Shown here: in pieces, positions 3,006 through 56,156 of the stretch | Numbering within the stretch: position 1 is the first letter of the stretch | Layout of the letters: each line of letters opens with the position of its first letter | Source: Marine Group I thaumarchaeote | GTDB lineage: Archaea > Thermoproteota > Nitrososphaeria > Nitrososphaerales > Nitrosopumilaceae | Reading direction: 5' to 3' | Length of the DNA: 64,000 nucleotides | Assembly: GCA_013390905.1 (NCBI GenBank) | Contig: JACATG010000006.1 | Coordinates: forward strand, 1-64,000 | Translations under genes and position numbers: made by a program | Notes under the pieces: model-generated | Database searches by the model: none | The model's input: the letters and a program-made list of their open reading frames with translations, nothing else | Told to the model about the DNA's origin: nothing

Positions 3006-4251
3006 CTAACTTCAACCCCAATACCCCCAGTGCATCCTGTCTTATTCTTGATGCATAGTCTGCTTTCTTTTCATTCTCAAGTGCTGGCTGTCCCAACTCT
3101 GATAGCAATTTTTTTGCAAGAGCAACTCCCAAATCTCCAATCAGATTCTTTGCTTTGAATTGTAATTGACCAATGTTTTCACTAAATACATTTGTTTCAA
3201 TCTCTGCCTTGTTCTCACCTTTAGCTTCAGTAATTCTATACTCTAGTGATGTTAACCTGTTCTTACTGATTTCTACTGCACTAGCTTCACGTTGATACAG
3301 TGACTCTCTAATTCCAGAAATATCTACATCAGATGTCTTTCCTGATGTCATCTCCCCATCTATCTTTATTATTACAACTTTGTTAACAGGATCTATTCCT
3401 TGTGTCTTTTCTAAGAGTTCTTTATTAATTGAATCTGCTTTACGATTGTTTGCATCAATCTCTATTATCTCATATGATGTATTTTCTAATTCAACAAATG
3501 ATACATCTTTAATCTTATCTTCAAATTCAACAAGAACGAATCCACGTTTTTGTCCCTTTGAGTTCTCCTCCAAATCAGAGTGAAATCCTGCAAATGGAGT
3601 TCCAGGATATACTACATTCGAATACCCATCAAATGATTGATGATTCCATTTGTGCATGTGACCTCCTGCATAATAGTCAAAATTCTTTGGAAGCAAAGAC
3701 AGAGGCATATGATCTCTCTCTATGCCTGCTTCAGTCTTCATATCTGAAATTCCGCCATGAAATAAGAATATCTTAAAGCCTGATTCCACCTCAAGCGAGT
3801 CTCTGTCTAGTTTTTCATAGTATTCTCGATCTTTTCCCACCTTGAGTCCTGAGAATCCGCAAATTTTGGCACCAGTCTTTGGATCTACTAAAAAATCCAG
3901 GACTATCTTCCCATCCTCCGAATCCTTCACTTTGGTAACTTTGCTGATATAACCAATTGCAACCAGCAAATCAATTACAGAATTAGAAACTGGAGAAGAG
4001 TCATGACTTCCATAAACTACATACACTGGAATTCCAGCTTCATGTACCTGCCGAAACTTTGCAAATGCAAACTTTTGCACTCGCATCTCTGGAATATTTA
4101 CATGAAACAAATCTCCTGGAATTAAAATAAAATCAACCTTGCGAGAGATGCATTCATCCAATGCTTTCTCAAATACTGTCTGCTCTATTTTTTGCAATGC
4201 TTCATGCTTTTGAAAACCCAGATGAATATCTGAGAGATGTGCAAATAACAA
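2995..4251 (-). CDS. mre11: DNA double-strand break repair nuclease Mre11
   Basis: Mn-dependent exo/endonuclease of the Mre11-Rad50 complex. Calcineurin-like phosphoesterase motifs are in order: D8-x-H10 (SDIHLG), D47 (GDLFH), GSHD at 81-84, H165 (FHGG) and H198-x-H200 (GGHMH). The family's motif III is normally GNHD; here the metal-ligating Asn is Ser82. The C-terminal part (about 280-418) is the Rad50-binding region. The gene starts 1 bp downstream of the herA stop and overlaps rad50, within the four-gene resection operon. Confidence 0.95.
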   Translation of the reverse strand: MLFAHLSDIHLGFQKHEALQKIEQTVFEKALDECISRKVDFILIPGDLFHVNIPEMRVQKFAFAKFRQVHEAGIPVYVVYGSHDSSPVSNSVIDLLVAIGYISKVTKVKDSEDGKIVLDFLVDPKTGAKICGFSGLKVGKDREYYEKLDRDSLEVESGFKIFLFHGGISDMKTEAGIERDHMPLSLLPKNFDYYAGGHMHKWNHQSFDGYSNVVYPGTPFAGFHSDLEENSKGQKRGFVLVEFEDKIKDVSFVELENTSYEIIEIDANNRKADSINKELLEKTQGIDPVNKVVIIKIDGEMTSGKTSDVDISGIRESLYQREASAVEISKNRLTSLEYRITEAKGENKAEIETNVFSENIGQLQFKAKNLIGDLGVALAKKLLSELGQPALENEKKADYASRIRQDALGVLGLKLDDS

Positions 4252-55814: not shown

Positions 55815-55823
55815 ATGTAGGGG

Positions 55824-55915
55824 TGGACCGGATGGGATTTGAACCCACGACCTTTGCGGGATTTCTCCTTACGCAGTGTGAGTGCGTCATCCAAACCAAA
55901 CTAGACGACCGGTCC
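55824..55915 (-). tRNA. tRNA-Val (CAC) with apparent non-canonical 17-nt intron
   Basis: Acceptor GGACCGG/CCGGTCC, D-arm, anticodon stem ACGCA/TGCGT with loop CTCACAC (anticodon CAC), T-arm GTGGG-TTCAAAT-CCCAT and discriminator A. As read, the variable region is 22 nt, too long for valine. Removing 55853-55869 leaves a normal AGGTC variable loop and 74 nt plus discriminator. CCA is not encoded. The alternative, a type II Leu/Ser tRNA, is ruled out by the CAC anticodon. Confidence 0.88.
55853..55869 (-). other. putative tRNA intron at the variable loop
   Basis: A bulge-helix-bulge-like structure can form: TGCG pairs with CGCA (4 bp) with 3-nt bulges TAA and AAG on opposite strands, and GGA-GAAA-TCC caps the intron. 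Cleavage after the second base of each bulge gives a 17-nt intron. The outer exon helix is weak by eye (about 2 bp), so the motif is relaxed. Confidence 0.6.
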
Positions 55916-55988
55916 AACAAATTTACAAAAACACAAGCTTTTTTGTCTTTAGATTTTGATATTTTATGATTACAATGAACTTTTAGTT

Positions 55989-56156
55989 CTATTTCTTGAC
56001 CCCAAGTGTTCTGTTCTTTAGTCTCAAGTATGGATTTCTGCATTTTCTACATCTTGTAGCATTAATATCATTTCTAGCTCCACATTTGAAGCAAATTTTC
56101 ATAACAAGACGTGCTTGTTGTGCAATGCGTTTTTTTTCAGGGTCTGAAATTGGCAT
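55989..56156 (-). CDS. rpl40e: 50S ribosomal protein L40e
   Basis: 55-residue ribosomal protein. It starts MPISDPEKKRIA, with four zinc cysteines in ICFKCGAR and CRKCR, and a basic C-terminus (LRLKNRTLGVKK). This is the archaeal L40e pattern. ATG 56156, TAG 55989-55991. It sits 31 bp downstream of sucD and upstream of tRNA-Val, all on the minus strand. Confidence 0.93.
   Translation of the reverse strand: MPISDPEKKRIAQQARLVMKICFKCGARNDINATRCRKCRNPYLRLKNRTLGVKK

Follow-up and report, generated by a model that had tools for sequence, protein, structure and literature searches.

Archaeal tRNA-Val belongs to class I, and a valine tRNA gene whose variable region spans 22 nt instead of 5 nt raises the question of what the additional nucleotides represent. 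Such a gene lies on the minus strand of the window (the whole stretch of 64,000 nucleotides that was analyzed). ARAGORN called it as tRNA-Val(CAC) at 55821-55916, and Rfam RF00005 matched it as tRNA-Val(CAC) at 55824-55915 with 50.1 bits, above the gathering score of 29; the Rfam search at this locus matched nothing but tRNA. These calls bear out the identity and the exact coordinates given in the initial annotation, which had left the strand unstated. Read from 5' to 3', the gene is GGACCGG UC GUCU AGUUUGGUUU GGAU G ACGCA CUCACAC UGCGU [AAGGAGAAAUCCCGCAAAGGUC] GUGGG UUCAAAU CCCAU CCGGUCC A, with the variable region in the outer brackets. All arms are complete, and the variable region, AAGGAGAAATCCCGCAAAGGTC, is the sole misfit to class I. 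Taking out 55853-55869 yields a 75-nt tRNA with a normal cloverleaf and the variable loop AGGTC (AGGUC); the splice reading first proposed for the 22-nt region was right to the base. Judging from sequence, we consider it almost certain that the archaeon, a member of the Nitrosopumilus group, has its only tRNA-Val(CAC) gene at this locus and that the gene is functional and carries a 17-nt bulge-helix-bulge (BHB) intron between positions 44 and 45. Upstream of the gene, at a distance of about 20-40 nt, many relatives share a conserved AATCTAAAGACAAAAAAGC-like block that is perhaps the promoter of the tRNA (window 55930-55975; upstream flanks of L042-L056).

We found that the insert has the architecture of an archaeal BHB intron. 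A 4-bp helix (UGCG/CGCA) separates the 3-nt bulges UAA and AAG, which lie on opposite strands. Beyond the 5' bulge, the intron forms an inner 3-bp helix (GGA/UCC) with a GNRA loop (GAAA), and two outer pairs, 38-46 and 37-47, complete the motif. The fold had previously been described as BHB-like, with the TGCG/CGCA helix, TAA and AAG bulges, and a weak outer helix; all of these are present, while the inner GGA/UCC helix closed by GAAA had gone unmentioned. Because of flanking repeats (AAGG/AAAGG), the intron boundary is unclear from the letters alone, but the BHB geometry settles on 44/45. With a cut after the second base of both bulges, the excised piece is AGGAGAAAUCCCGCAAA; it measures exactly 17 nt and comes from between positions 44 and 45. 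What remains is a standard 75-nt tRNA with the loop AGGTC, which is also the loop of most intron-less relatives. Both helices were kept in register in 2 of 100,000 shuffles of the 17-nt insert, and the structure of the insert is far above chance. A group I or group II self-splicing intron was ruled out, as the insert measures 17 nt compared to a ribozyme core of hundreds of nucleotides.

Features of the tRNA-Val(CAC) locus and its putative intron, in window coordinates
Feature	Position	Strand	Basis
tRNA-Val(CAC) gene, primary transcript body	55824..55915	-	92 nt, 75 nt spliced; ARAGORN, Rfam RF00005 and arm parse
Anticodon CAC	55878..55880	-	ARAGORN and arm parse
Putative 17-nt intron AGGAGAAATCCCGCAAA at tRNA site 44/45	55853..55869	-	BHB geometry; intron-less homologues with 5-nt loops
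BHB core helix, 5' strand UGCG (exon, positions 39-42; doubles as anticodon stem 3' strand)	55872..55875	-	
BHB core helix, 3' strand CGCA (intron)	55855..55858	-	Compensatory AGCG/CGCT and GGCG/CGCT in relatives
5' bulge UAA, predicted cut UA^A	55869..55871	-	Sequence
3' bulge AAG, predicted cut AA^G	55852..55854	-	Sequence
Inner intron hairpin GGA-GAAA-UCC	55859..55868	-	3 bp paired in 79/79 haplotypes, with compensatory changes
Upstream neighbour ORF, resembles ribosomal protein L40e (context only)	55989..56156	-	ORF list; named by sequence likeness

The 92-nt gene was matched in 197 of 200 sampled genomes of the family, with many full-length and some partial matches. The source assembly is a 20-contig draft, which would be the ground for regarding the insert as an assembly or sequencing artefact. 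However, three other assemblies contain the same 92-nt gene letter for letter, and many more have a near-identical one, among them single-contig genomes and named records such as Candidatus Nitrosopumilus salaria BD31 (L234). The homologues thus already refute this reading, whose probability is negligible. Among the fetched copies that were parsed, the insert is present in 21 of 22 sampled Nitrosopumilaceae genera, while the plain 5-nt AGGTC loop was found in three copies from genus g19 and one from genus g9. Among the copies listed in a class-wide sample, those from other families nearly all have a loop of 5 nt, which is AGGTC in most cases, and the 5-nt loops GGGTC or TGGTC appear in several g9 genomes. 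Taken together, g19, many genomes of g9, and the majority of matched outgroups have a 5-nt loop. A scan of named genomes found the insert in Nitrosopumilus (including the BD31 record), Nitrosarchaeum, Nitrosotenuis, and Cenarchaeum records. The name of the family is taken from these titles together with the NCBI lineage of Nitrosopumilus. A typical Nitrosopumilaceae intron-bearing tRNA-Val(CAC) (L215) was also found in a record titled uncultured Acidimicrobiia bacterium (CATQHD010000001.1), which is probably misbinned archaeal DNA because it carries this gene. Bacterial matches to the broad pattern mostly formed no anticodon stem and were dropped as chance.

The pairing of the two helices was compared across 79 distinct intron-bearing haplotypes. 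Pairing was seen in 99.7% of cells for the core helix and in 100% for the inner helix; with the strands slid by 1-4 positions as a control, the paired fractions were 0.25-0.70 for the core helix and 0.35-0.73 for the inner helix. None of 2000 label shuffles matched the observed pairing of either helix; as the haplotypes share ancestry, these statistics are not an independent-event probability. At the position-39 pair, we found the variants TA, AT, GT, TG, and GC, with a change of the exon U to A matched by a change of the intron A to U. The three inner pairs of the intron hairpin alternate between G-C and A-U; such compensatory changes are the informative kind. The intron measures 16-25 nt in 78 of the 79 haplotypes and 48 nt in one, and both helices are always kept. 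Thus, 17 nt is a typical length here. The 48-nt intron (L088; G013, genus g13) has a longer inner helix, which shows that the variable loop tolerates growth.

These comparisons bear on an alternative in which the mature valine tRNA keeps the insert as an enlarged, class II-like variable arm. Such an arm would agree with the small conserved hairpin inside the insert and with the cloverleaf being kept when the unspliced sequence is folded. However, the intron CGCA tracks the 3' strand of the anticodon stem (TGCG/CGCA, AGCG/CGCT, GGCG/CGCT), which a self-contained arm does not need. Moreover, a class II arm should be stably long across relatives, whereas intron-less sister genera have a plain 5-nt loop and the length of the insert ranges from 16 to 48 nt. 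We therefore regard a retained arm as very unlikely.

The copy number of the gene argues against reading it as an insertion-bearing pseudogene, decaying or disrupted, with GUG being read by another tRNA. Of the 40 tRNAs matched by Rfam in the source genome, a single one is Val(CAC) and a single one is Val(GAC), and each of 12 high-completeness genomes of genus g1 has exactly one intron-bearing Val(CAC). No further Val(CAC)-like tRNA was found in these 12 genomes with two sequence patterns, a stricter one accepting variable loops from 5 nt upward and a looser one requiring a loop of at least 6 nt and allowing other anticodon-loop bases. A second, normal Val(CAC) gene, which the initial annotation had named as evidence against its own reading, was thus found neither in the source genome nor in the 12 genomes of the genus. 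In a relative with a single 1,645,259-bp contig (G046), Val(TAC), Val(GAC), and Val(CAC) are each represented by one gene, and the Val(CAC) gene carries an intron of 22 nt; the tRNA-Val(UAC) of this relative could in principle read GUG too. Nevertheless, all stems of the gene are intact, and gene and insert persist family-wide with the helices under selection, which makes a pseudogene extremely improbable.

Two other tRNA observations were made along with these counts. The locus L313 (G046:1349700-1350000), with similar matches in G030, G032, G124, G146, and G181, holds a tRNA whose inserted sequence amounts to about 70 nt or more. Its CTCCAGA stretch suggests a tRNA-Trp(CCA) with more than one intron, and the Gln(TTG) label given by ARAGORN is probably wrong. 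In the source genome, there are two tRNA-Gln(TTG)-like genes (L037 and L014), and L037, with acceptor-stem mismatches and a lower score of 44.3 bits, is possibly a degenerate copy.

Both enzymes expected for an archaeal BHB intron are represented in the source genome: an RtcB-type ligase (PF01139, 591.5 bits) and the EndA endonuclease family, with one paralogue. When this paralogue was aligned to the M. jannaschii enzyme, it showed Gly at the position that we take to be that of the catalytic histidine; it thus looks like a structural (beta), apparently non-catalytic subunit. A search of the source genome with its EndA protein returned the self-match alone, and the assembly, which is incomplete, did not show the catalytic subunit. 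All of 16 relatives have two EndA genes each. The region around the other EndA in G104 (L269, ORF 3426-3962) matches the source genome (G000) at both ends only, near the starts of contigs C8 and C1, which places the second EndA in the gap between them. An alpha2-beta2 EndA is the type documented for Thaumarchaeota (PMC4090602).

A route from precursor to mature tRNA can be proposed. In the precursor, exon positions 39-42 (UGCG) would pair with the intron CGCA and displace their anticodon-stem partner, and the GGA/UCC hairpin would stack beyond the core helix to give a strict 3-4-3 BHB. EndA would then cut at UA^A and AA^G, RtcB would ligate the exons, and the anticodon stem would refold after ligation into a normal class I tRNA-Val with the loop AGGTC. 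Because the BHB takes the 3' strand of the anticodon stem, the two structures are mutually exclusive. By predicted energy, the fold with the anticodon stem is slightly more stable (-27.5 kcal/mol, compared to -24.0 to -25.9 kcal/mol for the BHB fold), and thus the naked precursor is not predicted to have the BHB as its ground state. On this folding model, cleavage would need EndA to catch a minority fold or to act before the anticodon stem forms. The intron is probably ancestral or near-ancestral in Nitrosopumilaceae, and a few genera lack it.

Noncanonical introns are documented in Thaumarchaeota, which are listed among the phyla that carry them (PMC3218864). The tRNAscan-SE 2.0 report (PMC8450103) counts 107 in Thaumarchaeota and describes a BHB covariance model trained specifically for this phylum. 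These introns share with the present one the phylum, the BHB architecture, a noncanonical position, and a tRNA restored by excision, and the Val(CAC) intron is likely among the 107. The rarity implied by the initial annotation does not hold in view of these reports, together with PMC4090602, and of an intron that is standard across the family. The site 45/46 is a listed position of archaeal noncanonical tRNA introns (PMC4090602). Introns at that site, such as that of Caldiarchaeum subterraneum tRNA-Thr(GGU) (PMC3293823), likewise lie in the variable loop beside the anticodon stem, whereas the best register of the Val(CAC) intron is 44/45. In the multi-intron tRNAs of Thermoproteales (Sugahara et al. 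2008, cited in PMC4090602), too, the BHB introns are noncanonical and the endonuclease of the lineage has two subunits; in contrast, Val(CAC) has one short intron in a presumed mesophilic marine lineage. No paper on the Val(CAC) intron itself was found in the open-access literature, and it is probably already in tRNA databases. It is a member of the documented Thaumarchaeota noncanonical BHB kind and not new in kind; what is new in detail is its family-wide conservation and an apparent recurrence of introns at the same loop in other archaea.

Variable-loop inserts of Val(CAC) that fit a BHB and leave AGGTC were found in L261, in L228 and L241 (other Nitrososphaeria), in L164 (Thermoprotei, 15 nt), and in L155 (Lokiarchaeota, 32 nt). 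The insert in L261 (G255), from the same order but a different family, has 13 nt of unrelated sequence, with a CAGC/GCUG core and a GUAA loop closed by one pair. Three further Lokiarchaeota inserts (L157, L229, and L238) gave an unconvincing strict BHB, with a shuffle fraction of 0.12-0.78, and were left uncounted. A speculative extension, which we consider rather unlikely, is that the Val(CAC) variable loop is a recurrent intron site across Archaea (inserts of 13-32 nt) and that the Nitrosopumilaceae intron is perhaps kept since the competition between BHB and anticodon stem makes splicing an enforced refolding step.

For annotation, the locus shows that pipelines without archaeal intron models produce a false 22-nt variable loop for Val(CAC), as ARAGORN did. 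In its biology, this is an ordinary archaeal tRNA intron, and its value lies in clean comparison: a very small intron has been kept throughout an archaeal family of global abundance, and intron-less sister genera pin its splice junction. It could serve for testing how EndA acts when the BHB and the anticodon stem are mutually exclusive.
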